From positions 688,458 through 752,457 of the forward strand of contig NC_015152.1 of the NCBI RefSeq assembly GCF_000190435.1: a stretch of DNA of 64,000 nt. The letters run 5' to 3'. The notes beneath the pieces are model-generated. The model was given only the letters and a program-made list of their open reading frames with translations, made no database searches and had not been told where the DNA came from. Every line of letters begins with the position of its first letter. The stretch's first letter is position 1. Position numbers and translations under genes: made by a program. The DNA comes from Sphaerochaeta globosa str. Buddy (GTDB lineage: Bacteria > Spirochaetota > Spirochaetia > Sphaerochaetales > Sphaerochaetaceae). Positions 36,301 through 54,256 of the stretch are shown here, in pieces.

Positions 36301-39300
36301 TCATAAAAAAGGGCTGCTTTTGAGTTGCTGTTGATTTGCTTGAGAGCTACCTGACTATGTGCTTGGGATAATTCGAATACTCGATGAGAAAACCATTTAC
36401 CTTGATATTTCTCAGCTAGTTGCATGGTTGATTCTCTGGAATTACTTATTCCAGTGATAATATCAATGGTCACAGAGGTCTCTGGCTCAAGCACAATAGA
36501 CTGTCGAATGGCAACAATAGGGTCCAATACCGAACCCTGTGTTCCCGATAGAGGCCCGAGGGTTTGCATTGCTAGTGGAGAGGCCACGGTATTTCCCCGT
36601 CCGATAAACCGCATTCGATCTGTTTCATACGAAGTTGCAAGTACTTTGGCATCGTGTACCTTCATCAGATGAAACAGGGAGGGAGAGCTTTCTTTCTCAG
36701 ACCGGGGACGACGCGAACAAAGAATAGTCTGCAATTTTTCTACAATTTCTGTTTGAACAAATAAGTTGCTGAAACTTGGGTGTGCCGCGTCGGTTGGGGC
36801 ATCGGTAAGCACGACTTCTGCATAGCTGGTCACATCGATGGTTCGTTTGGCTGAACAACGATTGGTTATGGTCAGCCTACGCAATTCAATGGGATCTTCA
36901 GGAGAAACTGCAATTTCCGTATAGGTATCGAAATCGTTGTCCCGCCGACGAAACTCCGCCCGTCCCTCAGAGAAGACCACCTCATATTTTTCAGGAACTT
37001 TCAGTGTAGGCTGAAACGTATTCGACCAATACTCTTTCGTGGCCTCGTTTCGGATATAGACAAAGGTGCCCCAATTATCCCGGGTTGTATCTTCATGCCA
37101 GCGGGTGAGTGCAAGCTTGTTCCATTTGGAATAGCTGCCTCCTGCAGTAGTTACCATCACATGATAGGTATCGCTGGAGAGCAAATGTACTTCCGGGATC
37201 CGTGTCTGATACGTATTGAATGTACGAGCAATTGCTTTTATTTCTTTATGTGGTACTCGCTTTTCAGGCAGAGTCATCTCTTGTGAATATAAAAACGTCG
37301 GTCTTGGGCTTTTTTCCTCAAGCAGCAAGGTTGTCGCTTGCATCATGGGAATCGATTCGAATCTCTTTTGCATAGGACCGTCCTGCAAGAGTGACACAAA
37401 CGAGAGGAAACTCATTCCTTGGTGATGAGCCATGAACGATCGTACAATGGCGTACTTCTGACCAGATGCTACGCGGGATTTTGTGTAATCGATGGCTTCA
37501 TACATTCCGTAGGCGCCTTCAAATCCGCTTTTGGAGAGCTGGATGAGATTAAGACAAGCCTTTTGGGGCGCAATCAACAGTGAGAGGGCTGTTGCATAGG
37601 GTGCTACTACCAAGTCATTCAACACTATTCGTTTCAAACCCAATCCTGGAACGCCAAAGGCCCGGTATTGGTAGTTGAGCGAGACATCGTAGGCATTGTA
37701 ACCCGACTCGGAAATTCCCCAAGGAATACTTAGCAAGTGTCCATATTCTATTTGTTTACGTACTGCAGCCTCGCATGTCTGGTCAAGAATTGTTCCCTTG
37801 TAGGTAGGCATCACCAAGAGAGGCATCAGATACTCAAACATTGAGCCGCTCCATGAGTAGAGCATCGTCTCGCGACCTGATTTGGTGATCAACCGGCCAA
37901 GAGAAAACCAGTTTTCCTTCGGAACTTGCTCCTGAGCGATTGCAACAAAACTCGTGAGTCTTGCTTCCGATGCAAGGAGATCATAATGTCCTGAATCCTT
38001 CCGACGGCTATCGACTGTATATCCGATTGTGAACAAGTTTCGACGTTTATTGTAAAGAAAGGTAAAATTCATGCATGTCAAATTCTCAATCTGAAGAGCA
38101 ATCGTATTGATCAATGAGAATCGCTCCTCGGCATGGGTACGGCCTTCAGAGAGCAGTTCGCCTAAGAGAGGGATTCTGATGTTAAGCGTCTCTACCATAG
38201 TGCTTTGTAGAGCATAGGATTCCCGTAGGCTCGATACCATACTCAGGTTCTGAAACTCCACTTCATGCTTGAACAGAGAGGCGTGGCTTGCCCAGGGGAA
38301 CAGATATTCACATTCCCCAAGAAAGTCGTGACATTGCTTTATGAGCATATCTGCCCACCATTGCATTATGGGATCCTTTTCGTCTTCAAGTGACACACGA
38401 ATCGCTAGGGCAATTGCAACGAGTTTTTCAAGCTCCGACCATACACCGGAAACAGTTTTTAGCGGTGTTCTCATCACCGAAGCAAGTGTATCCTGGAATG
38501 AGAGCAACCCCTGCGGCGATGCGTCTCCAAGGACTGCCTGGAGATTCAACGCAGTATCTTCAAGTCCCTTCCATATTCTTGTATCGGAGAATTGCTCATC
38601 AGCTAGTGATAGCAAACCGGAATGCAGGGTGAGAAGATGTGCAACGAGGTTGCCGCTATCTACGGTTGAAATGTATCGAGGCGAAAGAGGTTGTAGTGTT
38701 ATGGTGTCATACCAGTTGTAGAAATGCTTTTTGAATGTTTCAAGCGTTTCTAATGTCTGTAGCGTGAGACTGGTTCGCTCAAGCAATAATCCATCGGTAA
38801 TGTACCCAAGATCTCTCGCCCCAAGGTTGGCTAGAAGAGCCAGTCCGATGTTTGTCGGTGAAGTCCGATGGGCAATTTTTGCAATCGGTATTTCTTGGAA
38901 ATTATCGGGAGGAAGCCAATTATCTTTCAAGGTTACGAAGGTTTCAAAAAATGCCCAAGTTTTTCTAGCGAGTCTATGAATGAATTTGTCCTGATTTTCT
39001 GTCAATAGTTCCTTGTTCCTTTTAATTGGTTTACTGAATTCCCAGACGATACCAGCAGAAAACGACCAAAGGATAAGCACAGGAGCAGCGACCATCATCG
39101 TCGCCGGTGCAAGCATAGTGAGAAGAGAAAAAAGTGCCAAGGAAAATACAGGAGCAATCCACATAGTCAGAATCGAAGAACCCAGCGTCTGGTATCCGTT
39201 GTGTGTGTTGGTCTCTGAAGGATTCCACTGCAAGAGATGTCGGTGGGAAATCCACATCCTCCAGCAGGTTTTGGTGATTGCAATAAAGCTGATGTATGCA

Positions 39301-42041
39301 TCATACGGCATACAAACCAAGTCAAAGAAAGATGATATCAGATTTCTAAAGAACGAATGGACTGTCGAGGTTATATGGGCAAGCAGGGGCATATCATACG
39401 GCTTTTTACATAATGAGACAGTAGAGATAATCAGCTGAGGGACCCATAGCAAACTCAGAATGGAAAGCGTCCATGGCAGTGGATTGGTTAAGGTTGTCCA
39501 GCCGATACCAAGAAGAGCGGTAAGGACTATGGAAGTAATGCTTCTTCTGAGGTTGTCCAGGATTTTCCATTTTGACAACGCTGATAGGCTGGTTTTTTCC
39601 CGTATGTTCCTGTTGGTCGGAACGTGGGGGAAAAGCCAAGAAAATAATTGCCAATCGCCTCGAATCCATCGCTGGCGACGGTCCATATCAGCACGATAGG
39701 TTGTAGGGATATGTTCGAACAATTGAATGTCGCTAACCAAGCCTGCGCGTGCATAACAGCCTTCCAGCAGATCATGGCTGAGGATGCGATTCTCGGGAAA
39801 TCTATCCTTCAGAATATATTCAAAGGCCTCGACATCATAGATTCCCTTGCCGATGAAGGATCCCTCAGAGAAGAGGTCCTGATATACATCAGAGACAGCA
39901 CGGGTATACAGATCGAGACCGGGGTCGCTTCCTATAAGTTTTGAATAGCGTGATTGCGATATCCCTGACAGACTTGCATTGATACGAGGTTGCAAGAGTG
40001 CGTGACCTGCAATAATACGACTATGCTCCAGGTCATATTGCGGGCAATTGAGTGGATGGGCCATCGTTGCCGCAAGTTCCTTGACTGAGTCCCGGGGCAA
40101 GGTGGTATCCGTGTCCAAGGTAATAATATATTTTACCGTTTCAAGCTGGGACAAGTCTCCGACGATGAGATCGAAGGGGTCTTTCTGATTCGAACGAATA
40201 AGGGCATGCAAGTCTGCCAATTTACCTCGTTTTCGTTCATATCCAATCCACATTTTCTCTGAGGCATTCCATTTCCTTCCTCGATGGAAAAGGAAAAAAG
40301 GCTCCCCCTCAGGGGTTTTGTACAAAGCGTTTAGCTCCTGAATCTTTTGTTGCGCATAGGATGCAAGTTCCCCATCCATTGGTAACGTTTCGTTCTTGGC
40401 ATCCAAAAAATCAGTCAGTAATGCATACAGTACATTGCTGTCGCGATTTGCCAGGAATCGTACTTCCAAGGCTTCGGTGAGGGACTCTATCGCATGGGTG
40501 CTGGCTAGCATCGAGGGGACCACGACCAGAGTACGCGAGGTAACAGGAATGCCCTCTGAATAATCCATCCGGGGCAAAGTACTGCTGGGGATATGCATGG
40601 TTACCATCCAGTTAACGAGTTTGCTGGAAAAGCCCCCTGCACCGATATAGGCCAAGAAGCCGGCTGCAATGAGTTTCCAACCCGATAATCCGGCATGCCA
40701 ACCTATGGCCATAAAGAACAATGCTACAAGGGCAGAAATGAAACCAATGGATCCGATATACAGTACTAATTTTCCTTGAGTCCCAAGTACCCAGGAGAAC
40801 TTATATGCTTTTGACTTGCTGTGAATAGCTTGTTTTAATAAAGGCAACCCCTTGTCCAATAGGTAATACCCTACATGCAATAAACGTTTGTCATTCTCCT
40901 TCTTCCCCTTATGTGCCTGTGCCAGCTTAATGGCAAGGAATGCGATGTTTTGTTCATCCAGTCCGCTCTGTTTGGCAAGCTTTTCTACGGCATGCCGATA
41001 CGTGTCGCGAGTTTGGAAGTCCATCTTTGCATAGTGTTCGGAAGGGTCCTTGTGCAAAACCTTTTCCACATGGCTTGTGGATTCAACAAAGTTCTTCCAA
41101 TCATTTGCATCGAGAGAACGAAGACTGCCTATGGTATTGCTTATATTGACTTGGTCGGCTGTTTGTTGCTGGATTTCTGATTGGACAAGCGATTCTATAG
41201 TCAATCCCGACTCAGAGAGCTTCTGCTCAATCCAAGTCAGCGGCATCGCAAAAACCGTGCCTTTCCCGTACAGTTTTTGTGATAATTCCGCCACGAAGGA
41301 ACTGCTTAGCATCGGCTTGGAACGAGCCATGTCTGCAACCAGAATAAAGAGACTATTGGGATCCGATTCAGCCTGGGCTATGATTCTCTCGGCCCAAATA
41401 GTTGCTTGTTTTTTTGCATCTATTCCTCTGGATATCCTAATGGCAATTCTTCGCAGGTTTTCTATTAGTGCTAAGCGAAGCATTATGGGCACTGCCCATA
41501 ATTCACCGAGTGTCAATCTTGTGATCGTTTGATACGCATTGATGAAGCCCGGGAGGGCTTCGGCATCAACATATCCATCGCCATGTGAGATACACTCAAT
41601 GGCAATAGCATACACGCGGGGGGTGCCTTCATCGGTACTGTTCTGCAACCGTGGGAGCTCTCTGCTGTAATTCAACGGCAGGTCGCGTCTGGTGGTTAGA
41701 ATGATATTCTCAATCAGGTAGAAATTATCAAGCAACCATTCTCCTGCGGGAACTATTCTTCTGTTTGCATTTACCGTCTCAGTCAATAAGTTCCTAACAT
41801 CTTCCAATACTGCCTGGTTAATATCCATTCGCTTGAGGAACCCATTTTGTTTATGGGTAGAGGTGCTAAGTATATGTGATTGGGCAAGGATTTTTCCATA
41901 ATTCTGCATCTGTTCGGGGCTGAATAATTCAGAGTGCAAGGGTTCTTCAGTTTCGTAGCTTTGCCGAAAGAAACGAAGAGTTCGTGTCTTGAATAAGGAT
42001 AGAGTTCCATTTAATAATTTATACGTTACGTTACTTTTCAT
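33345..42041 (-). CDS. Cyclic beta-1,2-glucan synthase (NdvB/ChvB type)
   Basis: The start MKSNVTYKLLNG (42041, 2,898 aa) has GAGGGAG just upstream. Membrane helices are clear at about residues 425-490 and again after 850. The GT84 glucosyltransferase domain has the DxD-type IITLDTDTTLPRD (near 642) and RRQRWIRGDWQ (near 790). A glucoamylase-like domain follows. The C-terminal third is a GH94 phosphorylase-type domain with the general-acid stretch GSGDWNDGMN (near 2567). The family uses UDP-glucose to build a protein-linked beta-1,2 chain, then trims and cyclises it into periplasmic cyclic glucans. No exporter (NdvA/ChvA) lies alongside. The full length without frameshift argues it is functional. 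Confidence 0.93.
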   Translation of the reverse strand: MKSNVTYKLLNGTLSLFKTRTLRFFRQSYETEEPLHSELFSPEQMQNYGKILAQSHILSTSTHKQNGFLKRMDINQAVLEDVRNLLTETVNANRRIVPAGEWLLDNFYLIENIILTTRRDLPLNYSRELPRLQNSTDEGTPRVYAIAIECISHGDGYVDAEALPGFINAYQTITRLTLGELWAVPIMLRLALIENLRRIAIRISRGIDAKKQATIWAERIIAQAESDPNSLFILVADMARSKPMLSSSFVAELSQKLYGKGTVFAMPLTWIEQKLSESGLTIESLVQSEIQQQTADQVNISNTIGSLRSLDANDWKNFVESTSHVEKVLHKDPSEHYAKMDFQTRDTYRHAVEKLAKQSGLDEQNIAFLAIKLAQAHKGKKENDKRLLHVGYYLLDKGLPLLKQAIHSKSKAYKFSWVLGTQGKLVLYIGSIGFISALVALFFMAIGWHAGLSGWKLIAAGFLAYIGAGGFSSKLVNWMVTMHIPSSTLPRMDYSEGIPVTSRTLVVVPSMLASTHAIESLTEALEVRFLANRDSNVLYALLTDFLDAKNETLPMDGELASYAQQKIQELNALYKTPEGEPFFLFHRGRKWNASEKMWIGYERKRGKLADLHALIRSNQKDPFDLIVGDLSQLETVKYIITLDTDTTLPRDSVKELAATMAHPLNCPQYDLEHSRIIAGHALLQPRINASLSGISQSRYSKLIGSDPGLDLYTRAVSDVYQDLFSEGSFIGKGIYDVEAFEYILKDRFPENRILSHDLLEGCYARAGLVSDIQLFEHIPTTYRADMDRRQRWIRGDWQLFSWLFPHVPTNRNIREKTSLSALSKWKILDNLRRSITSIVLTALLGIGWTTLTNPLPWTLSILSLLWVPQLIISTVSLCKKPYDMPLLAHITSTVHSFFRNLISSFFDLVCMPYDAYISFIAITKTCWRMWISHRHLLQWNPSETNTHNGYQTLGSSILTMWIAPVFSLALFSLLTMLAPATMMVAAPVLILWSFSAGIVWEFSKPIKRNKELLTENQDKFIHRLARKTWAFFETFVTLKDNWLPPDNFQEIPIAKIAHRTSPTNIGLALLANLGARDLGYITDGLLLERTSLTLQTLETLETFKKHFYNWYDTITLQPLSPRYISTVDSGNLVAHLLTLHSGLLSLADEQFSDTRIWKGLEDTALNLQAVLGDASPQGLLSFQDTLASVMRTPLKTVSGVWSELEKLVAIALAIRVSLEDEKDPIMQWWADMLIKQCHDFLGECEYLFPWASHASLFKHEVEFQNLSMVSSLRESYALQSTMVETLNIRIPLLGELLSEGRTHAEERFSLINTIALQIENLTCMNFTFLYNKRRNLFTIGYTVDSRRKDSGHYDLLASEARLTSFVAIAQEQVPKENWFSLGRLITKSGRETMLYSWSGSMFEYLMPLLVMPTYKGTILDQTCEAAVRKQIEYGHLLSIPWGISESGYNAYDVSLNYQYRAFGVPGLGLKRIVLNDLVVAPYATALSLLIAPQKACLNLIQLSKSGFEGAYGMYEAIDYTKSRVASGQKYAIVRSFMAHHQGMSFLSFVSLLQDGPMQKRFESIPMMQATTLLLEEKSPRPTFLYSQEMTLPEKRVPHKEIKAIARTFNTYQTRIPEVHLLSSDTYHVMVTTAGGSYSKWNKLALTRWHEDTTRDNWGTFVYIRNEATKEYWSNTFQPTLKVPEKYEVVFSEGRAEFRRRDNDFDTYTEIAVSPEDPIELRRLTITNRCSAKRTIDVTSYAEVVLTDAPTDAAHPSFSNLFVQTEIVEKLQTILCSRRPRSEKESSPSLFHLMKVHDAKVLATSYETDRMRFIGRGNTVASPLAMQTLGPLSGTQGSVLDPIVAIRQSIVLEPETSVTIDIITGISNSRESTMQLAEKYQGKWFSHRVFELSQAHSQVALKQINSNSKAALFYDQIASSILYGNARLRSDAATLIANHRGQSGLWGYSLSGDLPIVLFTIRNLENISMVQQIVQAHTYWHQKGLEVDLMILHEETEGYRQELQEQVLAMVTATGGKTIIDRPGGIFIRGSDQFSVEDRQLVQAVSRIVLDDSSGPLENQIMEQGARKMSVTKLRPVHGLRKTDKNPTSSPDLELQFSNGIGGFANAGKEYVIITGKGKKTPSPWSNVIANPDFGTVITESGTAYTWMGNAHEFRLTPWYNDPVSDTSGEAFYIRDEESGEYWSPTPSPRQGNGLYTCRHGFGYSTFEYSESGIHSHLSVFVAQKASVKFAMLTLRNDSQRTRRLSATNYVELVLGNLREKSAMHVVTEFQEDTGAIFAQNWYNTDFAGTTVFLNATGSNHTVTGDRTEFIGRNGTLANPEAMTKRNLSNSLGPGYDPCAVIQVPFVLEKGKEIVVVFTLGAGKDSEEAKSLVHRYTSISSVTLAFDEVRTFWEQTVSVIQIETQDSALDILTNGWLVYQMISSRLWGRSGFYQSGGAFGFRDQLQDIMALIYTDPTLARSHILLCAAHQFVEGDVQHWWHPPQGRGVRTHCSDDYLWLPLAVCRYLSITDDTGILDEIVPFIEGPKLKMDEESSYGMPRISKETASLYDHCTRAISFSFHRGVHGLPLMGSGDWNDGMNLVGKEGKGESVWLGFFQYSLLLQFSDIATQRKHDKFAALCRKKAYELQIHLHDNAWDGAWYYRAWFDDGKLLGSSNNTECKIDSLSQSWAVLSEAGDTIRVRKAMDSVYEFLVKQEHGVIQLLDPPFDTSNLEPGYIKGYVPGVRENGGQYTHGAIWVAMAFAQLRDTKRAWELCSMINPIEHSKTAALMDVYKADPYVIAADVYSCAPHAGRGGWSWYTGSASWMYRLIVESLLGFTLTGNTLQIKPLLPPEWKAFKLHYRFGKTMYHIKVVQAAAGANKEVLVDGVQQKDEGIILVDDQKEHAIAWHIPRETDTSTQ

Positions 42042-42209
42042 CACTCCCTCAACGAACGGTTGAAATACCATCTGAAGTATATACGCTGTCGAGAGTTTTG
42101 TTTGTTCGCTGCCGCACAGACTGAGCAATTGCCTTGATCACTTTTCATCTACAAGGCAGCTGATATGAAGAATCTGCTTTTTTCTCGTGTAAAATCCCTA
42201 CAGATGAAA

Positions 42210-44250: not shown

Positions 44251-45705
44251 TCATCCCAGGCATGTGTCAAGCAGGAGCCCCGTCTGGTACTTACGCATAA
44301 ACACTTCGAAGGTAGACTCCGGTATCGGCTGGGTAAAATAATTACCTTGCAGATAGGTACATCCAAGTTTTGTTGCTGCTTCAAGGATTTCCTTCTTCTC
44401 AATGCCCTTTGCCAGAACCTCGATTCCTTTCCTTGTCGCTGATTCCTTGAGGGAAGCGTACACCTGCTGCAGCTGCAAGGAGTACACGGAAAAATCGAGC
44501 TTGATGCTATCGAAATCTGCCCGAGCAAATGCTTGTAGGTCGAATGCATTCTCATTAAACACATCCAGGGAGATCCTGAAGCCAATTTCCCTGAGTTCTT
44601 TGATCACAGCCAAGGATTCCGGCTCTGAGAATGCTGAATCCTTGAGATCAAATTCTATCTGTGTAGGGTGCAGCCCATGGTGTTCGGCAAGAAAATGCAT
44701 ACGGCCTGCAAATCCCTTTTTCAGGCTTTCATTGCTGACATTCAAGACTATTTTGAACGTATACGGAATAATACGGGCGAGCATCATTTTCCGGATGATT
44801 GCAAAGGTTTTGGTAATGATAGCCATGTCGATGGCTTCAATATGATGCAATTCGCCGGCGATATCCTTGAACACCTTTGCTGAAAGAATTCGAAAGCCGC
44901 CAAGTTGCCATCGTGCCAGACTTTCAGAGCCAACAACGCACAAGGTTTCTGAGTCGATAATCGGTTGGAAGAAGGGATTGAATTCCGCTTCCCATCCTTG
45001 TGATTGAAATCCTTGGATACACTCATCGATGTCCAGTTTTCTTGCCTGGATTTCTGAATTTGCGACCATCCAGGTTTTATAGCTTCTTTGCGCTTCCTGT
45101 TGCGTAACATATGCGAGATCGACCAGCTGCTCGAGAGAGGCCGTACGGTACCGGATTCCGGACGCTGCACATCCGATGAGTATCTCAACTGGTGGTAGGA
45201 AAGTTCGCCGTGCATCAAACCTATTTTGCAGTCTCTCTAGTATTGTCTGGCAAACGATAGCCTGATATTCAGCCTTCACTTTCTCGTTGGATAGCATCTC
45301 AGACGGAAAATTCCTGAGAACTACAAAGGCCTCATGGGTCATCCTTTGTGTATTGTTTGTACCAAAATAGTCCATGAGTTCCTGGGCACACAGCAAAGAG
45401 ACTTCCTCAAGCCGTTCCCGGTTTACACAGGACTGGAAGACCCCTCTTGTATGCATTGAAAGGTAGAGGCAAAACAGGGACTCAAGATTGGACTGCTCAT
45501 GAAGCCTCAACCACTTCGAAAGTGCCTTACTTGTATATCTCCATGGTTCACAGTGGTTGATGTAATGGAATCCCATGTTCACATTGATCAGAAACAGCAG
45601 GGAAAAAGCTAGACCGGCACTAATCCAACCCAACGAGAAGCTTATGACAAGCAAAACGAAATTGGCACACCCCAATACAAGAGAATGATGCTGCAAGAAT
45701 TTCAT
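44251..45705 (-). CDS. Membrane protein with degenerate EAL domain
   Basis: The start MKFLQHHSLVLG (45705, 484 aa) has AAGGAAC upstream. Two membrane helices lie at about residues 8-45. Residues about 60-230 are of unknown type, and about 240-475 are an EAL fold. The EAL Glu (ESLAR, near 259) and Asn (LNVSNES) are kept, and the Lys of IKLDFS is kept. The ELTE acidic residue is changed (IEFDLKDSAF), the DDFG motif reads DVFNEN (second Asp lost), and AEGVE reads AKGIE (Glu to Lys). Hydrolysis of cyclic di-GMP is therefore unlikely; binding or scaffolding is more plausible. A terminator separates it from the mreB genes. Confidence 0.82.
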   Translation of the reverse strand: MKFLQHHSLVLGCANFVLLVISFSLGWISAGLAFSLLFLINVNMGFHYINHCEPWRYTSKALSKWLRLHEQSNLESLFCLYLSMHTRGVFQSCVNRERLEEVSLLCAQELMDYFGTNNTQRMTHEAFVVLRNFPSEMLSNEKVKAEYQAIVCQTILERLQNRFDARRTFLPPVEILIGCAASGIRYRTASLEQLVDLAYVTQQEAQRSYKTWMVANSEIQARKLDIDECIQGFQSQGWEAEFNPFFQPIIDSETLCVVGSESLARWQLGGFRILSAKVFKDIAGELHHIEAIDMAIITKTFAIIRKMMLARIIPYTFKIVLNVSNESLKKGFAGRMHFLAEHHGLHPTQIEFDLKDSAFSEPESLAVIKELREIGFRISLDVFNENAFDLQAFARADFDSIKLDFSVYSLQLQQVYASLKESATRKGIEVLAKGIEKKEILEAATKLGCTYLQGNYFTQPIPESTFEVFMRKYQTGLLLDTCLG

Positions 45706-45783: not shown

Positions 45784-46833
45784 TTAGTCAGTCGGTTTTA
45801 CAAAATAACTACCGCGATTCTTGAGCAACAACTTGGTTCCATCGACTACCGCCGTCAGTGGTCGTTTGGAGATATGGAAGTCCATACCAATCCGTTCGTG
45901 CAGGAATTCATCGATTCCGTCGATCAGGGCACCACCTCCACTGATATAGATTCCGTTGACTATGATATCCGAGGAGAGCTCGGGGGGAGTGTTTTGCAAC
46001 ACCTTCAGCACCATGGTGGAGATTGATTCGAACGGTTTGACCAGGACATCGCGGATTTCAGATTCTGTTATGGTAATTTTCTTAGGGAGTCCAGTGACCA
46101 CATCCCTTCCGCTTGCCCAAGTTTCTCTTGGATCCTTGATTTCCTTGCGCAGCGAACCTATTTCCATCTTGATTCGTTCCGCCGTTTTCTTTCCAATGAG
46201 CAAGCCATGCTTATACTGCAGGTAATTCATGATTTCATTATCGAAATAGTTTCCTGCAATCCTATTTGATTCGGATACCACAATGTCACCCAAGGACAGG
46301 ACACCGATGTCGGTCGAACCTCCACCGATATCGATGAGCATCGACCCGTTACTGCTGAAAATATCGAGACCTGATCCAATAGCGCCTGCTTTAACTTCCT
46401 GTTCAATGAACACTTCCTTGACTCCAAGCTTGTTGCCAAGTGCCATAAAAGAGTCACGTTCCAACTGTGTGACTTCGGAAGGGCAGCACAATAGCAGTGT
46501 GGATTCTTTGATATCGATGTTTATGTTCTCAATCTTGTGCAATGAAATCTCGATGAGTTTCTTGGTAGCCTCAATATCGGAAATGACCCCTTGATTCAAC
46601 GGGCTTATAATCTTAATTCCGTGATGCCCTTTCCCTATCATGTTTGCAGCCATGCTTCCGGAAGCAATCACCTCATTGGTTTCATAATCGAAGGCGATAA
46701 CTGAAGGCTCGTTGGTAATTATGCCCTCACCTTCAACATAGACAAGGATGTTTGCCGTACCCAAGTCAATACCGATATTTTTTCCCACCGAGCGTTTTTC
46801 TTCTTTCTCTTGTTTTCGAATGGATAATGCCAT
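45784..46833 (-). CDS. MreB-like actin homologue, third of three
   Basis: This 349-aa protein has the actin-fold ATP site: phosphate-1 motif GIDLGTANILVYVEG (about 21-35), phosphate-2 MLIDIGGGSTDIGVLSLG and the adenosine motif IYISGGGALIDGI. It has a 17-residue charged N-terminal extension (ALSIRKQEKEEKRSVGKN) absent from its two neighbours. Where MreB has EEPMAAAIGAG this protein reads EQEVKAGAIGSG, as do its neighbours with small changes. It is the last gene of the trio, 12 bp from the second. GTAGGAG lies about 9 nt upstream. A wall-associated filament role is inferred from family only. Confidence 0.88.
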   Translation of the reverse strand: MALSIRKQEKEEKRSVGKNIGIDLGTANILVYVEGEGIITNEPSVIAFDYETNEVIASGSMAANMIGKGHHGIKIISPLNQGVISDIEATKKLIEISLHKIENINIDIKESTLLLCCPSEVTQLERDSFMALGNKLGVKEVFIEQEVKAGAIGSGLDIFSSNGSMLIDIGGGSTDIGVLSLGDIVVSESNRIAGNYFDNEIMNYLQYKHGLLIGKKTAERIKMEIGSLRKEIKDPRETWASGRDVVTGLPKKITITESEIRDVLVKPFESISTMVLKVLQNTPPELSSDIIVNGIYISGGGALIDGIDEFLHERIGMDFHISKRPLTAVVDGTKLLLKNRGSYFVKPTD

Positions 46834-46845
46834 AATGAAAATCTC

Positions 46846-47874
46846 CTACAGTTGAAGCGGATTGACCAAGTAGTCTCCGCGATTCTTCAATAAATATTTG
46901 GTGCCTTCTGCTACACAGGTAAGGGGGTTGTGTACCACTTTTACAGGAACCTGAATCCGCTTTTGCACATATTCCTCTATACCGCGAATCATCGAACATC
47001 CTCCGGTGAGCAATATCCCGTTCTTATAGATGTCGGCGGATAATTCCGGCGGGGTATCCTTCAATACTCCCATGATGAGTTTCACGATTTCCTCAAATAC
47101 CGGTATCAGGACTGATTGTACTTCAGTAGTTGAAAGCATGACCCATTTGGGAATTCCCTTTACCATATCCCTTCCGGCATAGCGGTTCACAACGTTTTTT
47201 GCCTCTGCATGCAAGTCGCCCAGTTCGATTTTCATTTTTTCTGAAGTCAATTCACCAATTTCAACACTCTGGGTTTTTTTAACAAATTTGGAAATCTCAT
47301 CGTCCATGAAACTTCCTGCTTTCCTGATTGTACGGGAGAGTACGATATCACCAAAAGAGATAACGCCGACGTCAGTGGTTCCTCCACCGATATCCACGAC
47401 CATCACGCCTTTTGACTTAAAAATATCCACACCCGCCCCAAGCGCTCCTGACTTTATCTCCTCTTCAATAAACACATCGGTGATATTCATTTTTGTTGCC
47501 AGATCAGTCATTACATCACGCTCGATTTTTGTTACTTCCGAAGGGCAACAGATTACACAGGTTGTTTTGGAGATATCCTTCTCGGTTAGGTTTTCAACCT
47601 TCCCAAGAACATAGCTCAAGAGAGCTTTAGCAGCACGCATATCCGAGATAACACCATTTCTCAAGGGTTTCACGACGGAAATCTTTGAGTGGACTTTACC
47701 AAGCATTTTGTGAGCGTCTTCCCCGGCAGCTACAATCTTTCCAGATTCTCTGTCAAATGCGATCACCGATGGTTCATCAAATATGATTCCTTTCTTTTCC
47801 AGGAACACCAACAAATTGGCAGTTCCAAGATCGATGCCCAAACCCAGTCTATCATTCGCTATTACTGCACTCAT
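46846..47874 (-). CDS. MreB-like actin homologue, second of three
   Basis: The start MSAVIANDRLGLGIDLGTAN (47874, 342 aa) keeps the usual short N-terminus; ATG or GTG codons 4 and 8 codons upstream lie at or across the end of the previous gene. Phosphate-1 is GIDLGTANLLVFLEK, phosphate-2 is VMVVDIGGGTTDVGVISFG and the adenosine motif is ILLTGGCSMIRGI. The active-site region reads IEEEIKSGALGAG. It lies between two paralogues, all three on one strand without room for promoters. Each copy differs enough that simple recent duplication is excluded. Confidence 0.88.
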   Translation of the reverse strand: MSAVIANDRLGLGIDLGTANLLVFLEKKGIIFDEPSVIAFDRESGKIVAAGEDAHKMLGKVHSKISVVKPLRNGVISDMRAAKALLSYVLGKVENLTEKDISKTTCVICCPSEVTKIERDVMTDLATKMNITDVFIEEEIKSGALGAGVDIFKSKGVMVVDIGGGTTDVGVISFGDIVLSRTIRKAGSFMDDEISKFVKKTQSVEIGELTSEKMKIELGDLHAEAKNVVNRYAGRDMVKGIPKWVMLSTTEVQSVLIPVFEEIVKLIMGVLKDTPPELSADIYKNGILLTGGCSMIRGIEEYVQKRIQVPVKVVHNPLTCVAEGTKYLLKNRGDYLVNPLQL

Positions 47875-47887
47875 TTCCTTACCCATC

Positions 47888-48913
47888 CTATACTTCACTA
47901 TAAAAATAACGACTCGTCATTTTGAGCATTTTTTTGCATCCATCTATTACAGCTGTCAAAGGAACCTCGGAGAGATATACAGGAATTTGCGCGATTTCAG
48001 AAAAGTATTCCTTGATTCCTGGAATCTGAGAACAGCCGCCGGTCAATAGGATTCCCGAATCAACGAGATCACCTGCCAATTCAGGAGGAGTCTCTTCCAA
48101 TGTTGCGAGCAATATGGATTTAATCGGGTCGAAGCTTCGCAGAAGCACTTCACGGATTTCCTGTGGGGATAGGGTAATTTGGCGGGGTAGGCCGGAGACT
48201 AAGTCCCTGCCCATCGCTTCTGCGTGGATCAGGTTGCAATCCTCATCCATCGGATAGGGGCCTGTCAGCGAAGAAAGGGCAATCTTGATTCGTTCTGCAG
48301 TCTGATTGCCGATTTCCAGCTTGTGGGTGGTTTTTACGTAGTCAATGATCTGCCGGTCGAAATAGTCGCCTGCAATCTTGATGGATTTCGAAAGAACCAC
48401 TTCACCAAGGGAGAGGATGCCGAAATCGGTTGTACCGCCGCCGATGTCGATTACCATGTGGCCTTTTGGTGCAAATATATCAAGACCGGAGCCGAGGGCT
48501 CCTGCTTTGATTTCTTCTTCAATTTCCGTGTTTTGAATACCCAGGCTATGTCCGAGTTCCACGATTGCTTCCTTCTCGGTGTTGGTGATTTCCGAGGGAA
48601 TACAGATGAGGAGCTTGTTGATCGAGTCGAGATTGGAGAGAAAAATCTTATCCAAAGTGTACAGCAGGATTTCTCGTATCAGTTGGATGTCAGAGATTAC
48701 TCCTCCTTGCAACGGTCTGGCAACTTCAACTTTGCTGTGGGTTTTCCCATCAAGTTTAGCTGCTTCATATCCAACGGATACTACATTGCGCGTCGCTTTG
48801 TCGATTGCAATGATCGATGGTTCATTGAATAGCGTACCCTGGCCTTCAACATAGATGAGAAGGTTCGAGGTACCTAAATCAACTCCTACGGATAAATTTG
48901 TCTTTTCCTTCAT
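47888..48913 (-). CDS. MreB-like actin homologue, first of three
   Basis: The start MKEKTNLSVGVDLGTSN (48913, 341 aa) has GGAGGG 6 nt upstream; the frame extends 14 codons further without support. Phosphate-1 is GVDLGTSNLLIYVEG, phosphate-2 is HMVIDIGGGTTDFGILSLG and the adenosine motif is GILLTGGCSQIPGI. The active-site stretch reads IEEEIKAGALGSG instead of the MreB consensus with EEPMAAAIG. It is the first gene of the operon. No mreC, mreD, rodA or PBP2 gene is nearby, unlike typical mre operons. Confidence 0.88.
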   Translation of the reverse strand: MKEKTNLSVGVDLGTSNLLIYVEGQGTLFNEPSIIAIDKATRNVVSVGYEAAKLDGKTHSKVEVARPLQGGVISDIQLIREILLYTLDKIFLSNLDSINKLLICIPSEITNTEKEAIVELGHSLGIQNTEIEEEIKAGALGSGLDIFAPKGHMVIDIGGGTTDFGILSLGEVVLSKSIKIAGDYFDRQIIDYVKTTHKLEIGNQTAERIKIALSSLTGPYPMDEDCNLIHAEAMGRDLVSGLPRQITLSPQEIREVLLRSFDPIKSILLATLEETPPELAGDLVDSGILLTGGCSQIPGIKEYFSEIAQIPVYLSEVPLTAVIDGCKKMLKMTSRYFYSEV

Positions 48914-49038
48914 GCTTTCCCTCCAATGGTCCTTACAAAAAAATATCAAAAGCAAAATCGCTTCCGATTAACATTTGGAATCGTATACATATTGTTTGTG
49001 TAACCAAAAAGCATACATATGTGTTTGATTTCTGGTCT

Positions 49039-49067
49039 AGTAGAGCACACCAAAATTGAGATGTCAA
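49039..49067 (-). promoter_or_regulatory. Promoter of the mreB-like operon
   Basis: On the minus strand TTGACA (49067-49062, 6 of 6) and TCTACT (49044-49039) are 17 bp apart, in strongly AT-rich DNA. The predicted 5' leader before the first mreB-like gene is about 120 nt. Confidence 0.5.
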
Positions 49068-49459
49068 TAAAATAAATGCAAAATAAATTAATGTAATATA
49101 AACAGTTAGTGCATATGTCACATTTAGCAAAAGAGACTAAAACAACAATGTTGTGACAATTGTCAAAGAAATCAGAAATAAAAAAATAGATTATTGTATC
49201 TCTCCTAATGGATTAGTATTTTACTCACGATATTTTGGCTGAAGAAATGCTATGACAAGTGGCATAAGTCATAGTGCAATAAGAATTAATACTGGATTAA
49301 TTTTGTGAACTTAGGTGATGTGATGATTGACCAAATTTATTGATGAATCCGCATATTAATTACCCTTTGTCCTCTTCTCTGAGGTGTCTGCATACAATTT
49401 TGGGAGCCAATGTTCTCTATTGCTACCAAAACAAAGCATGTGTTTTCCATCCTTTACAG

Positions 49460-49709
49460 ATGATTCTTACTGATCTCGGCATGCACATGACCACTGCTAT
49501 CATGTATTTTTAAGGCAGGCGATCTATTGTAAAGGATTCTTTTCGAAGTGGTGCTGATGACTCCCAGCGATGTGACTCTGACTGCGATGGAAGCAGCTGA
49601 GAATTCGCAGGATATATATGGACCATTCGATAGTGATTCCAGCTTGATGGATGCGCTGGATGCTTACGCCAGTCTTATCAGCTCATTCCTTTTTTACTTC
49701 CAAACATGA
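49460..49709 (+). pseudogene. Decayed RelB/DinJ-type antitoxin gene
   Basis: Two frames together spell a RelB/DinJ antitoxin. The first (49460-49513) reads LTDLGMHMTTAIMYF, the ribbon-helix-helix core, then stops. The second, beginning just before the ATG at 49557 and ending at 49709, reads FEVVLMTPSDVTL then TAMEAAENSQDIYGPFDS and DSSLMDALDAY, the usual C-terminal half. The expected NIRID N-terminus is missing and frameshifts or stops interrupt the join. No RelE/YafQ toxin follows. The gene is therefore dead, a relic in a 1.1-kb AT-rich gap (48914-50052) that otherwise holds only the promoter above and one other relic. Confidence 0.6.
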
Positions 49710-49761
49710 TACGTGGATGCGTGATGGTCCCCCTCAACTGGATATGCATGCAAGGGTTTCT

Positions 49762-49902
49762 TTATTCCTTCTTATCTGAGAGTTTCAGCAATGTAGGCAG
49801 CAAGTAGAGCATCTTCTTCTGGTCATTTGCATCACCTACTTCTTCAAGAAGCTGTTCTTGGTCTTAGATGGACAATGATTGCTTGTAGTCTTCTGCTAGC
49901 AT
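49762..49902 (-). pseudogene. Short gene relic with an internal stop
   Basis: A minus-strand frame reads MLAEDYKQSLSI, an in-frame TAA (49866-49864), then DQEQLLEEVGDANDQKKM and LYLLPTLLKLSDKKE before a final stop. The frame is also open upstream of the ATG for at least 20 codons. The amphipathic, charged composition looks like former coding sequence. I cannot name the family. Confidence 0.35.
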
Positions 49903-50052
49903 GGTTCGGTTGAATTTGGCTGGTGATTTGATTTTTTGTGGTTGATTCAGAACAAGAAAGAGATGGTGCCAGGAGTAAATTCCTCCCAGCACCATCGGTT
50001 GATACACGTTTTCAATACTCTTTATTCAGTATCAACGAGTTAAGTCCTACCT

Positions 50053-51987
50053 TTAAAGCATAGGTACAAACAACGGATCTACAACTGTATTTCCGATAAG
50101 CGTTACATTGGTTTGACCCAATAACTTACCCTCGATCGTAGCACCATCTGTAAGAGCAATTACGCCCTCACCTAAGACAATTCCTTGCATCTTGGAATTA
50201 GCCAACAAACTGACAGCTCCTGTAACCTGCCAGAAAATATTTTCAGCCTTTGCTCCATTGAGTAATACAATCTCTACCTCGGCAGCCACATTTAAGGCGC
50301 CGGTTATCTGGAAAATCCAAACAGCTGCTTCATCCCCCTCTGCGTCCAAAGTAAGGTTTATTGAGAGGCTTACTGCAGGGATCGATTTATAGAGCCCAGG
50401 GTAAAGAGTTGTACCGCCAGCAATAAGTTCAGGTCTAGGATCTGTTAACGCAACTATGGTGTCATACGCGGTTTCCATATCAAGAATAGCCGCAATTAAC
50501 ATATCTGGAGTGGGTGCAATAAAATCTGAAGCATAGATTTTCCCTCCACCCAATACAAGACCGGATGTAGCATATGTTCCGTCCAAGGAAAGAATCTCAG
50601 CGAAACCCGTTACAGTGGCACGGGCAGCAGGACTTATTCCTAGATCACCAGTAATCGCCGTTACTCCGGTAGTAGTAATCCCGCTTTTAGCCAGTATTAC
50701 AAAATCATCCGCTGTTCCCATATCCACCCTGGCTAAGGGTACTATTGGAGCTGTTACTGTGACAGGGAATACAGCCGTTACCACCCCGATGTCAATGGCG
50801 TTGGTCGCTGTAGCTCCCTCAACTGTGAAGAAATTCTCTGTAACACCGGTCAGGGTGTATCCAGTTACCGGCACCAATGTAATAGTTGCTATGTACACGG
50901 TATCCACTTCGTACGTGCCCTCTGGTGCCAATACGGTGAGATCAGCCTTTGTCCATGTCACACTACTGCTGGTATACTCTATAGTATTCGTTATTGCAGT
51001 GACGGGGCTCTCTCCCGTTACCGGTGCAGTCAAGCCAGTGATTGCCTTGGCACTGATCACTTTTTCAGTGATGGTAATCCCTAAGGTGCCCACACTATCT
51101 GAACCATCATTGGCCGTTGCATTGACGGTGACTGTCCCCATGCCTGTTGCTGTAAGCAGACCTGTCTCACTGATGGTGGCTGTTCCCGTTCCGGCTACAA
51201 CTGACCAAACAAAACTCTTGTCGGTTGCATCGATAGGCAGTACTGCTGCATTCATCTGCAAGGTTGAACCATTCGCTACCGTGATTGCATCACCTGCTCC
51301 TGTGACTGTAATAGTTGTCACATCAATAGGTGTTGGTACAACAGCGGTCACGGTGATTGCTAATTCTCCCACAATACCTGAACCATCGTTGGCTGTCGCC
51401 TTAGCGGTGACTGTGCCAACTGCTGTTCCTGTAAGCAGACCTGCCTCACTGATAGTGGCTGTTCCCATTCCGGCTACAACTGACCAAGTAATACTCTTGT
51501 CGGTTGCATCGGCAGGTAGTACAGACGCACTAAGCTGCAAGGTTGAAGCATTTACTACCGTGATTGCATCACTTGCTCCTGTGACTGTAATAGTTGTCAC
51601 ATCAATAGTTGTTGGCATGACAGCGGTCACGGTTACCTCAAGTTCTCCCACTGCTGCAGAGTCATCGTTAGCAGTTGCATTCACACGTACTGTTCCTGCG
51701 CCTGTTGCGCTGAGCAGACCAGTCTCGCTGATCGTCGCGGTACCTGTACCTGCAACAACTGACCATGTCACACTCATATCGGTTGCATCGGCAGGTAGTA
51801 CTGCTGCACTCATTTGTAATGTTGAACCATTGCCTACCGTGATTGCATCACCAGCTCCTGTGACTGTAATACCGGTCACTGCCACTGGCGGGGCTTCGAT
51901 GTCTGCCTTACATCCCCATATGAATGTGAGTATTGCGATGAGCGCAATGATCGTCACATATTTTGTATACGTATTTCTTTTATTCAT
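50053..51987 (-). CDS. Ice-binding (DUF3494) lipoprotein with three bacterial Ig-like repeats
   Basis: The start MNKRNTYTKYVTII (51987, 644 aa) has GGAGG 7 nt upstream. A lipoprotein signal ends in IWGC (Cys26). Three Big_2-type Ig-like repeats with a 93-residue period cover about residues 37-310 (each with DAIT, LPADATD, TWSVVAG and ATISE-type motifs). A further domain spans about 310-425. The C-terminal 215 residues are the DUF3494 ice-binding beta-solenoid: VDMGTADDFVILAKSGI, ITGDLGISPA, LYPGLYKS, WIFQITGALNV, IFWQVTGAVSL, GATIEGKLLGQTNVTL. Such domains bind ice or act as adhesins at the cell surface. Lipidation plus Ig spacers suggest surface display. Confidence 0.88.
   Translation of the reverse strand: MNKRNTYTKYVTIIALIAILTFIWGCKADIEAPPVAVTGITVTGAGDAITVGNGSTLQMSAAVLPADATDMSVTWSVVAGTGTATISETGLLSATGAGTVRVNATANDDSAAVGELEVTVTAVMPTTIDVTTITVTGASDAITVVNASTLQLSASVLPADATDKSITWSVVAGMGTATISEAGLLTGTAVGTVTAKATANDGSGIVGELAITVTAVVPTPIDVTTITVTGAGDAITVANGSTLQMNAAVLPIDATDKSFVWSVVAGTGTATISETGLLTATGMGTVTVNATANDGSDSVGTLGITITEKVISAKAITGLTAPVTGESPVTAITNTIEYTSSSVTWTKADLTVLAPEGTYEVDTVYIATITLVPVTGYTLTGVTENFFTVEGATATNAIDIGVVTAVFPVTVTAPIVPLARVDMGTADDFVILAKSGITTTGVTAITGDLGISPAARATVTGFAEILSLDGTYATSGLVLGGGKIYASDFIAPTPDMLIAAILDMETAYDTIVALTDPRPELIAGGTTLYPGLYKSIPAVSLSINLTLDAEGDEAAVWIFQITGALNVAAEVEIVLLNGAKAENIFWQVTGAVSLLANSKMQGIVLGEGVIALTDGATIEGKLLGQTNVTLIGNTVVDPLFVPML
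51061..51870 (-). repeat. Three tandem 279-bp repeats encoding Ig-like domains
   Basis: The coding DNA of the three Big_2-type domains repeats with a 279-bp (93-codon) period and high nucleotide identity in blocks such as the CTGACCAA region. The similarity suggests recent duplication or ongoing gene conversion. Number variation between strains would be expected. Confidence 0.75.
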
Positions 51988-52182
51988 GAAATTCCTCCAG
52001 ATTACTTGTTTGCCTGGGACAGAACATGGCTTTGCAGTTCCATCCTGGCGGCCGTTGGAGTCATCCAGGGATTTCACGTACCTCCTCCCATATTTGGGTT
52101 GTGTGAAATTGATCCCTTTTAGGGCTCATCGATGCATCGACTGTTGGATTTGCATCCATACAGCTGATTTTCAGTCCTTTAA

Positions 52183-53543: not shown

Positions 53544-53936
53544 TCAGCGTCTTACCCGTAGTCCAAGGATTTTTTCCATTTGTTCATACTCTTTGTCGTT
53601 GTGAAGAAGCCCAAACCCGTGCTCAATGCAAAAGGTTGCAATGAGCACATCGATGGTCTTGTGTATGGTAACGCCTTTCTTTCTGAGCAAACGAAAGTTT
53701 TGTGCGGCTTTGATGGCCATATCCTTGCCAATGAAGTCATAATACTCAAGAGAATCCATAAGCCTCCTAGCTTGCTGGAATTGCTTGTTGTCCCGGAATC
53801 CCTGTAAAAACTCCACAATGATCAAATCACCCGTTACAACACGGTCCTGTTTCAATTCTCTGTCCAGGATATCAGTTTGGGCGGTACGTACCCCATTCAC
53901 ATAGTCAATCCAGACAGAGGTATCTACAACCATCAT
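53544..53936 (-). CDS. vapC: VapC-type PIN-domain toxin
   Basis: This 130-aa protein has the PIN nuclease acids: Asp5 in MMVVDTSVWIDYVNG, the Glu in DLIIVEFLQGF and the C-terminal Asp in TIDVLIATFCIEHG, with LLHNDKEYEQM following. VapC toxins cleave tRNA or rRNA when unmasked. Its ATG overlaps the stop of the antitoxin gene by ATGA, so the pair is co-translated. All expected acidic residues are present, so it looks active. Confidence 0.9.
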   Translation of the reverse strand: MMVVDTSVWIDYVNGVRTAQTDILDRELKQDRVVTGDLIIVEFLQGFRDNKQFQQARRLMDSLEYYDFIGKDMAIKAAQNFRLLRKKGVTIHKTIDVLIATFCIEHGFGLLHNDKEYEQMEKILGLRVRR

Positions 53937-54127
53937 TTGTTGGTTCTCATTGCATCAAGATCGCCTTCCCATGTGAGCTTACCTCTGAGTTCACGGATCT
54001 TTTCTTGTTTTTTCATGGTAATGAGGAGCTTCAAGCCTTCCTCTACCGCTTCTTTTTTAGTTTTATACCCAGAAATCAGTAATGCTTCGCTCATCAACTG
54101 GTCATCGATGATTATGTTCGTACGCAT
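53933..54127 (-). CDS. vapB: VapB-type antitoxin (DUF2191-like)
   Basis: The start MRTNIIIDDQLMSEAL (54127, 64 aa) has GGAGG 5 nt upstream. The N-terminal ribbon (RTNIIIDDQL) and the helices LLISGYKTKKEAVEEGLKLL form the DNA-binding ribbon-helix-helix typical of VapB. The C-terminal tail KLTWEGDLDAMRTNK should wrap the VapC active site. It overlaps vapC by ATGA and is preceded by a palindromic operator over its -10 box. Confidence 0.9.
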   Translation of the reverse strand: MRTNIIIDDQLMSEALLISGYKTKKEAVEEGLKLLITMKKQEKIRELRGKLTWEGDLDAMRTNK

Positions 54128-54143
54128 TGAAACCTCCAGATAG

Positions 54144-54193
54144 CCATGTGTATCAATATTCATAATGATACACATGGAAACTGAAAACGTCAA
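54144..54193 (-). promoter_or_regulatory. vapBC promoter with overlapping palindromic operator
   Basis: The -35 TTGACG (54193-54188) and -10 TATCAT (54170-54165) each match 5 of 6 bases, with 17 bp between. A perfect 12-bp inverted repeat, CCATGTGTATCA (54144-54155) and TGATACACATGG (54166-54177), covers the -10 box. This is the classic layout for toxin-antitoxin autorepression. Confidence 0.8.
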
Positions 54194-54256
54194 ACCTAAT
54201 AAGAACATAGATCTCGGATAGTTCTCTCATGTTTCTTCGGCTAGGCAACGTAATCA

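Follow-up and report, generated by a model that had tools for sequence, protein, structure and literature searches.

A cassette of three wall-less-type MreB genes and a degenerate GGDEF-EAL gene in Sphaerochaeta globosa, apparently acquired by lateral transfer

A stretch of 64,000 nucleotides from Sphaerochaeta globosa str. Buddy (contig NC_015152.1, positions 688,458 to 752,457; hereafter the window) carries three tandem genes of the bacterial actin MreB, designated mreB-A, mreB-B and mreB-C, and a fourth gene encoding a membrane protein whose GGDEF and EAL domains are both degenerate (Table 1). As an earlier note on this DNA had proposed, the three lie in tandem at 45784-48913; they are intact open reading frames (ORFs) on the minus strand. 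They are full-length Pfam MreB_Mbl matches (E 1e-107 to 1e-113, the former for mreB-A), and their products are 45-48% identical to one another. The start codons were set by orthologues, and the ATG of A also has GGAGG ahead of it. Co-expression of the paralogues, which the note had taken for granted, is plausible only, the genes being on the same strand with gaps of ~13 bases. The note saw the three genes correctly but overlooked the fourth, and the four are referred to here as the cassette. The cassette genes have 44-46% GC, against 49% for the window. Promoter-like matches in 48914..49960 were no commoner than in shuffled sequences, which is the level of chance, and the promoter is putative. 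The genome of the host, a round-celled spirochaete, is a single contig of 3,316,466 bases, 99.97% complete, and in a genome-wide search A, B and C were its sole MreBs.

Relatives of the triplet were sought with a profile (A1) built from 16 Sphaerochaetaceae proteins. About ten genomes from a Tenericutes-related class, 1.5-2.1 Mb in size, had the same tandem triplet, which scored 470-538 bits. This group is called Izemoplasma here, a label drawn from one member taken as Xianfuyuplasma coldseepsis zrk13, a cultured Izemoplasma that is wall-less, coccoid and non-motile (PMC8397711). In the order around one triplet genome, 15 of 90 genomes had at least one such MreB and 13 of those 15 had all three genes. 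A penicillin-binding protein (PBP) transpeptidase was absent from nine of ten triplet-bearing Tenericutes-like genomes, the other (G468, outside the 90-genome order) having two. Seven larger Bacilli genomes had at least four related MreBs, a Haloplasma-like number, together with 2-4 PBPs. Among 247 genomes of the host phylum, the host alone exceeded 338 bits when scored with the triplet profile, and Bacilli Mbl scored 360-389 bits; these scores argue that the host is not a member of the Bacillota. A scan of GTDB had Mbl and MreB, not Izemoplasma, among the matches listed, and is uninformative on absence elsewhere. In a survey of the host order these MreBs occurred in 14 of 119 genomes, the others showing DnaK- or FtsA-level matches only.

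Several arrangements were seen among these relatives. An 880-residue protein follows the Izemoplasma cassette (L213:10519-13167, L215:1500-4154, L219:10426-13068); the one scanned had no Pfam match, and the protein was not seen beside Sphaerochaeta cassettes. In four multi-MreB Bacilli loci (L222, L223, L224, L225) a gene of ~620-630 residues stands between MreB pairs in the place of the EAL gene, and the one scanned has a PIN domain at its C-terminal end. Another Bacilli locus (L227, G382:C1:374000-391000) carries a module of two MreB genes together with genes for a distant EAL protein and a 343-residue protein; the module occurs twice in near-identical tandem. A Sphaerochaeta-related draft genome (G099) has two differing mreB-A/B copies on separate contigs (L047, L048), which may reflect a second cassette or a mixed assembly.

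A tree of 105 sequences was built with IQ-TREE under LG+C20, long rows having been dropped. A branch with 100/100 support separates the proteins of Sphaerochaeta, Izemoplasma, multi-MreB Bacilli and Spiroplasma (the wall-less-type group) from Mbl, the MreBs of Bacilli, Clostridia and spirochaetes, and others; its status as a clade assumes a root among the canonical MreBs. The distinct clade outside ordinary MreB and Mbl that the note had predicted is thus recovered; the note had overlooked the apparent lateral origin of the Sphaerochaeta genes from wall-less Bacilli. The A proteins of Sphaerochaeta and Izemoplasma are sisters (100/100); their B proteins group together at 100/100 and their C proteins at 100/84. 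The hypothesis of a diverged ancestral spirochaete MreB was rejected by the approximately unbiased (AU) test, in which grouping of the Sphaerochaeta proteins with spirochaete MreB gave p-AU 0.0005. Duplication inside Sphaerochaeta, modelled as a single Sphaerochaeta clade, was likewise rejected (p-AU 0.0006), indicating that the paralogues split before the transfer. The sisterhood of the A proteins by itself speaks for neither direction of transfer. B and C have further relatives outside the Sphaerochaeta-Izemoplasma pairs from Bacilli and none from spirochaetes, which favours a direction from Bacillota to Sphaerochaeta. The Spiroplasma MreBs form a separate subclade; long branches join them with the canonical group, and their exact placement is unsure.

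All three proteins keep the phosphate-1 (DLGTxN), phosphate-2 (DIGGG[TS]TD) and adenosine GG motifs, in agreement with the note. The altered active-site stretches that it quoted, EEEIKAGALGSG, EEEIKSGALGAG and EQEVKAGAIGSG, are present, but they have twelve letters against the eleven of the note and its alignment is offset. With residue roles taken from PMC9597168, the third position of the motif holds the catalytic Glu, and E146 of C aligns with E140 of CcMreB and E134 of SciMreB5. The Lys of C (K148) is two residues past the catalytic Glu, at the place of Met, and has K136 as its SciMreB5 counterpart. The note regarded this Lys as a special gain of the three proteins. As a new active-site feature it was rejected, being standard in Mbl and Spiroplasma MreB5: it is found in all 15 Bacilli Mbl used for the tree, 8 of 8 Spiroplasma-type rows and S. 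citri MreB5 (7bvy). What is diagnostic is the residue that separates the catalytic Glu from the Lys: it is [IVL] here, Pro in Mbl and MreB, and Ala or Ser in spirochaete MreB. E-[IVL]-K occurs in every wall-less-type row but one, a Spiroplasma row with D-I-K, and in none of 123 canonical rows. Neither by tree nor by this motif do the proteins fall inside ordinary MreB. In canonical spirochaete MreBs (L131-L159), where Ala or Ser has taken the place of the Pro that follows the catalytic Glu, the stretch is mostly EEALA against the usual EEPMA.

The sequences do not demonstrate the changed ATPase behaviour put forward in the note. In the alignment A, B and C all retain the catalytic Glu and the TxD Asp, and only C has a mild Thr to Ser change at the first Thr of TxD, which it shares with most Izemoplasma C proteins and with a third of the rows from multi-MreB Bacilli. 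The S. eriocheiris counterpart of SciMreB5 was the more active ATPase of two tested (PMC9597168). The AlphaFold model of C, with a mean predicted local distance difference test (pLDDT) score of 89, matched Mbl, Spiroplasma MreB5 and other MreBs at template modelling (TM) scores of 0.83-0.90. Mbl and Spiroplasma MreB5 were the best PDB matches, and on 7bvy the model superposed with 42% identity.

The host was compared with two Izemoplasma (zrk13 and G403). DnaK was 62-65% identical, A 63-70%, B 74-75% (74% with zrk13) and C 69-71%. Within each group DnaK is 84-86% identical and the MreBs 72-81%, so that MreB evolves faster than DnaK. That B and C, which evolve faster than DnaK, are nonetheless closer across phyla than DnaK matches the prediction of lateral transfer and supports it strongly; the cassette was apparently gained in this way. 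Within the Sphaerochaetaceae it lies in six contexts that have only the cassette genes in common (the window; L035; L036; L037-L042 with L044; L043; and L045-L046), and in the 13 complete clusters from these contexts the four genes are intact and kept together. Purifying selection on A, B and C is strong among close relatives (nonsynonymous pN 0.03-0.06, synonymous pS 0.6-0.8) and much weaker on the EAL partner. Carriage by phage was rejected, since a viral collection gave, apart from one fragment with 62% identity across 50 residues, only matches of 20-30%. The circular plasmid CP074574.1 of the cold-seep Mycoplasmatota bacterium zrk4 carries a single wall-less-type MreB (L251:12013-13020) among hypothetical genes. 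It is 54% identical to C and has the motif EKEVKAGAIGSG; no triplet was present in the stretch of plasmid read. This MreB is a hint of mobility, not of the Sphaerochaeta transfer.

In each of the 13 complete Sphaerochaetaceae clusters the fourth gene is directly 3' of C. It also adjoins the triplet in Izemoplasma clusters, standing upstream of A in L212 and being cut by a contig end in L211. With a profile of its family (A2), an orthologue of at least 469 bits was found beside the triplet in every triplet genome tested, except G616, where the contig ends; two of the triplet genomes, G783 and G099, had contributed no sequence to the profile. In contrast, none was found in 14 of 14 triplet-less relatives tested with A2, where the best match was a different EAL protein at no more than ~163 bits. 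The product has two predicted N-terminal helices followed by GGDEF-like and EAL-like domains (Pfam E 1.7e-38 for the latter; AlphaFold pLDDT 83.5), and the GGDEF-EAL structures of PaMorA, PA0575 and LapD were among its best structure matches. Which residues of an EAL domain take part in catalysis is well established from EAL enzymes. Here the GGDEF motif has been lost, nearly the whole family has Val, Ala or another residue in place of the second Asp of the catalytic pair, and the Glu of EGVE is Lys in nearly all members; the EAL Glu, Asn, Lys and Gln are retained. The full catalytic set of an active EAL phosphodiesterase, to which the DD pair and the Glu of EGVE belong, is thus not found. Because the GGDEF motif and EAL catalytic residues are lost, the protein is unlikely to make or break cyclic di-GMP (c-di-GMP), which it may bind. 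GGDEF domains are plentiful in both host groups, at 9-41 per genome. The Izemoplasma genomes of 1.5-2.1 Mb (G415, G403, G651, G582 and others) have 9-25, which is many for wall-less bacteria.

The machinery of wall synthesis was also surveyed. As the note had stated, no mreCD or PBP genes are among the neighbours of the triplet. MreC was not found in a genome-wide search of the host, no search being made for MreD, and with A, B and C as its sole MreBs the host has no MreB-MreC elongation system. It has one PBP transpeptidase (1.378 Mb) and one SEDS protein (1.368 Mb), ~10 kb apart, and an FtsA-level match adjoins the SEDS gene. The lack of MreC, and a lone PBP and lone SEDS protein beside an FtsA-level match, make a division set probable and a set for rod elongation improbable. 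In agreement with this, mreC, rodA and PBP1a/2 have been reported absent from Sphaerochaeta and Bullifex, and murA-G, murJ and mraY present in all genomes studied of that group (PMC7738495). In the same report Bullifex porci and S. coccoides were the only species noted as without 'mreB', the type of which went unrecognised there. Sphaerochaetaceae with the same single PBP and without any MreB exist (G036, G110).

Table 1. Features of the cassette and its upstream region, in window positions
Feature	Position	Strand	Product	Remarks
mreB-A	47888..48913	-	341 aa	motif EEEIKAGALGSG; GGGTTD intact
mreB-B	46846..47874	-	342 aa	motif EEEIKSGALGAG; GGGTTD intact
mreB-C	45784..46833	-	349 aa	motif EQEVKAGAIGSG; GGGSTD (Thr to Ser in TxD pair)
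E146-V147-K148 codons of mreB-C	46390..46398	-		catalytic Glu, Pro-replacing residue, Lys
Fourth cassette gene	44251..45705	-	484 aa from conserved start	membrane protein; degenerate GGDEF and degenerate EAL
Intergenic region 5' of mreB-A	48914..49960	-		AT-rich (37-38% GC); presumed operon promoter site
Terminator-like hairpin	49962-49996			14 pairs; closes the gene upstream of the intergenic region

Elsewhere in the window, the ORF at 33345-42128 (minus strand, 2927 residues) resembles a cyclic beta-glucan synthase of the NdvB type and is possibly relevant to a reduced-wall cell. The gene at 50053-52077 (minus strand) encodes a putative lipoprotein that has repeated Ig-like segments and, in its C-terminal part, resembles ice-binding-like (DUF3494-type) domains; its repeats also leave open a 618-residue ORF on the opposite strand, which is probably spurious. 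A pair of small genes at 53544-54208 (minus strand) resembles a VapBC-type toxin-antitoxin system, with a PIN-domain protein and a short partner.

The reading that we regard as probable, if not strongly so, is that the cassette is a laterally acquired unit of the Izemoplasma kind, mreB-A/B/C with a membrane protein of GGDEF-EAL fold, which acts as a mechanical cytoskeleton without steering peptidoglycan synthesis. A, B and C would bind ATP and copolymerise as antiparallel filaments under the inner membrane. Since the paralogues differ, it is proposed that a mixed filament could take up or change curvature. The filaments would then shape, stiffen or divide the cell mechanically rather than via peptidoglycan synthesis, as the Spiroplasma precedent suggests, in which an MreB pair alone gives wall-less cells helical shape and movement (PMC9710875; compare PMC9663586). 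The GGDEF-EAL protein would substitute for RodZ/MreCD, anchoring the filaments to the membrane and tuning their assembly by c-di-GMP binding, or serving as a pure adaptor; its constant neighbourhood and co-occurrence with the MreBs point to such anchoring or control. Likely outputs are stiffness, size control, division without an elongasome, or membrane organisation. Helical swimming is not expected because zrk13 is coccoid and non-motile, and non-spiral spirochaetes are described as coccoid with their motility genes lost (PMC12236494).

Several points weigh against this reading. The function proposed for A, B and C is deduced from sequence. Given the coccoid, non-motile zrk13 and the non-spiral spirochaetes without motility, no known shape or motility phenotype is tied to the cassette, and cassette-free Sphaerochaeta and Izemoplasma genomes exist. 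A physical interaction of the GGDEF-EAL protein with the MreBs has gene neighbourhood as its sole basis, c-di-GMP binding by the EAL domain is putative, and the fourth protein evolves much faster than the MreBs (39-62% versus 76-96% identity). Finally, the single PBP and SEDS protein of the host leave some room for a link to septal wall synthesis.

A rival view is that the proteins are an ordinary MreB set still guiding wall synthesis, with new partners such as the one FtsW/FtsI-type pair in place of MreC, RodA and PBP2. The retention of one PBP transpeptidase and one SEDS protein, the reported murA-G, murJ and mraY of the group (PMC7738495) and the 2-4 PBPs of some multi-MreB Bacilli with related proteins are in its favour. 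It is nevertheless judged unlikely: MreC was not found in the host, G036 and G110 have the same single PBP and no MreB, and the closest orthologues occur in PBP-free genomes, indicating that they do not need wall synthesis there. A Spiroplasma-like engine of helicity or motility, expressed only under conditions yet untried, is quite unlikely. The proteins share the wider tree group with the Spiroplasma MreBs, two of which are enough to make a wall-less cell helical and able to swim (PMC9710875), but those form a separate subclade, the cassette has no fibril gene, zrk13 is coccoid and non-motile, and the non-spiral spirochaetes lack motility (PMC12236494).

Alternatively, the filaments might not shape the cell but organise signalling, the chromosome or membrane domains, acting chiefly through the GGDEF-EAL protein. 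That this protein is a fixed partner and that domains for c-di-GMP synthesis are abundant would fit, whereas the Sphaerochaeta cassette has no further conserved effector gene and the GGDEF-EAL protein is its fastest-evolving member, making this role very unlikely. That the cassette is a decaying or neutral relic of transfer is scarcely credible; its patchy spread through the order would be expected of a relic, but the integrity of all four genes in every complete Sphaerochaetaceae cluster and context, and the strong selection on A, B and C, would not.

Beyond the mechanical cytoskeleton without peptidoglycan guidance, a broader proposal is made more tentatively and is given somewhat less than an even chance of being right. 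The cassette would be a mobile, self-contained actin module of three actins and a membrane protein resembling c-di-GMP receptors, providing mechanical organisation without guiding peptidoglycan synthesis, which passed from wall-less Bacillota to a diderm spirochaete lineage already without its own MreB and replaced the elongasome. No report of the four-gene cassette, its conservation in Izemoplasma or its transfer to spirochaetes was found in the literature searched, in which older key papers were incompletely covered. Outside the Mollicutes, MreB is understood as a scaffold on which the wall is built, and what is known of its use independently of a wall comes mainly from Spiroplasma; MreBs of the wall-less type are already known from Spiroplasma and Haloplasma. 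Here an actin of this type seems to have moved between phyla, together with a conserved partner of signalling type, into a diderm that has no elongasome. If the cassette is functional, what bacterial actin does apart from rod-type wall synthesis becomes directly addressable, and c-di-GMP control of bacterial actin and the gain of a cytoskeleton by gene transfer become questions that can be asked. Moreover, 'mreB present' in Sphaerochaeta does not denote an ancestral spirochaete gene, which corrects the earlier reading.

Among known systems, Bacillus-type Mbl is the closest canonical group by profile (360-389 bits, versus at most 338 for spirochaete MreB) and has the same Lys, but it retains the Pro after the catalytic Glu. 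Mbl works with the peptidoglycan elongation machinery. Degenerate c-di-GMP receptors of the LapD/FimX type share the domain order and fold of the fourth protein and, like it, have lost the catalytic residues of both domains; the fourth protein, however, belongs to another sequence lineage tied to MreB operons, and its c-di-GMP binding is putative. The MreB1-5 proteins of Spiroplasma (e.g. SciMreB5, 7bvy) fall in the same group apart from canonical MreB and Mbl, have an E-[IVA]-K motif, and are tandem paralogues in wall-independent use. They differ in being five isoforms rather than three, in having the fibril protein rather than a GGDEF-EAL protein as partner, and in serving helical swimming cells; there is no fibril gene in the host cluster, the search for one not having been extended genome-wide. 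The Izemoplasma triplet (zrk13 and relatives) belongs to wall-less Bacillota and has extra downstream genes, for the 880-residue protein and a PLD-like protein, that were not found in Sphaerochaeta. In its orthologous A-B-C order, its adjoining GGDEF-EAL gene, its 63-75% identity and its lack of an elongasome, it resembles the cassette of S. globosa.

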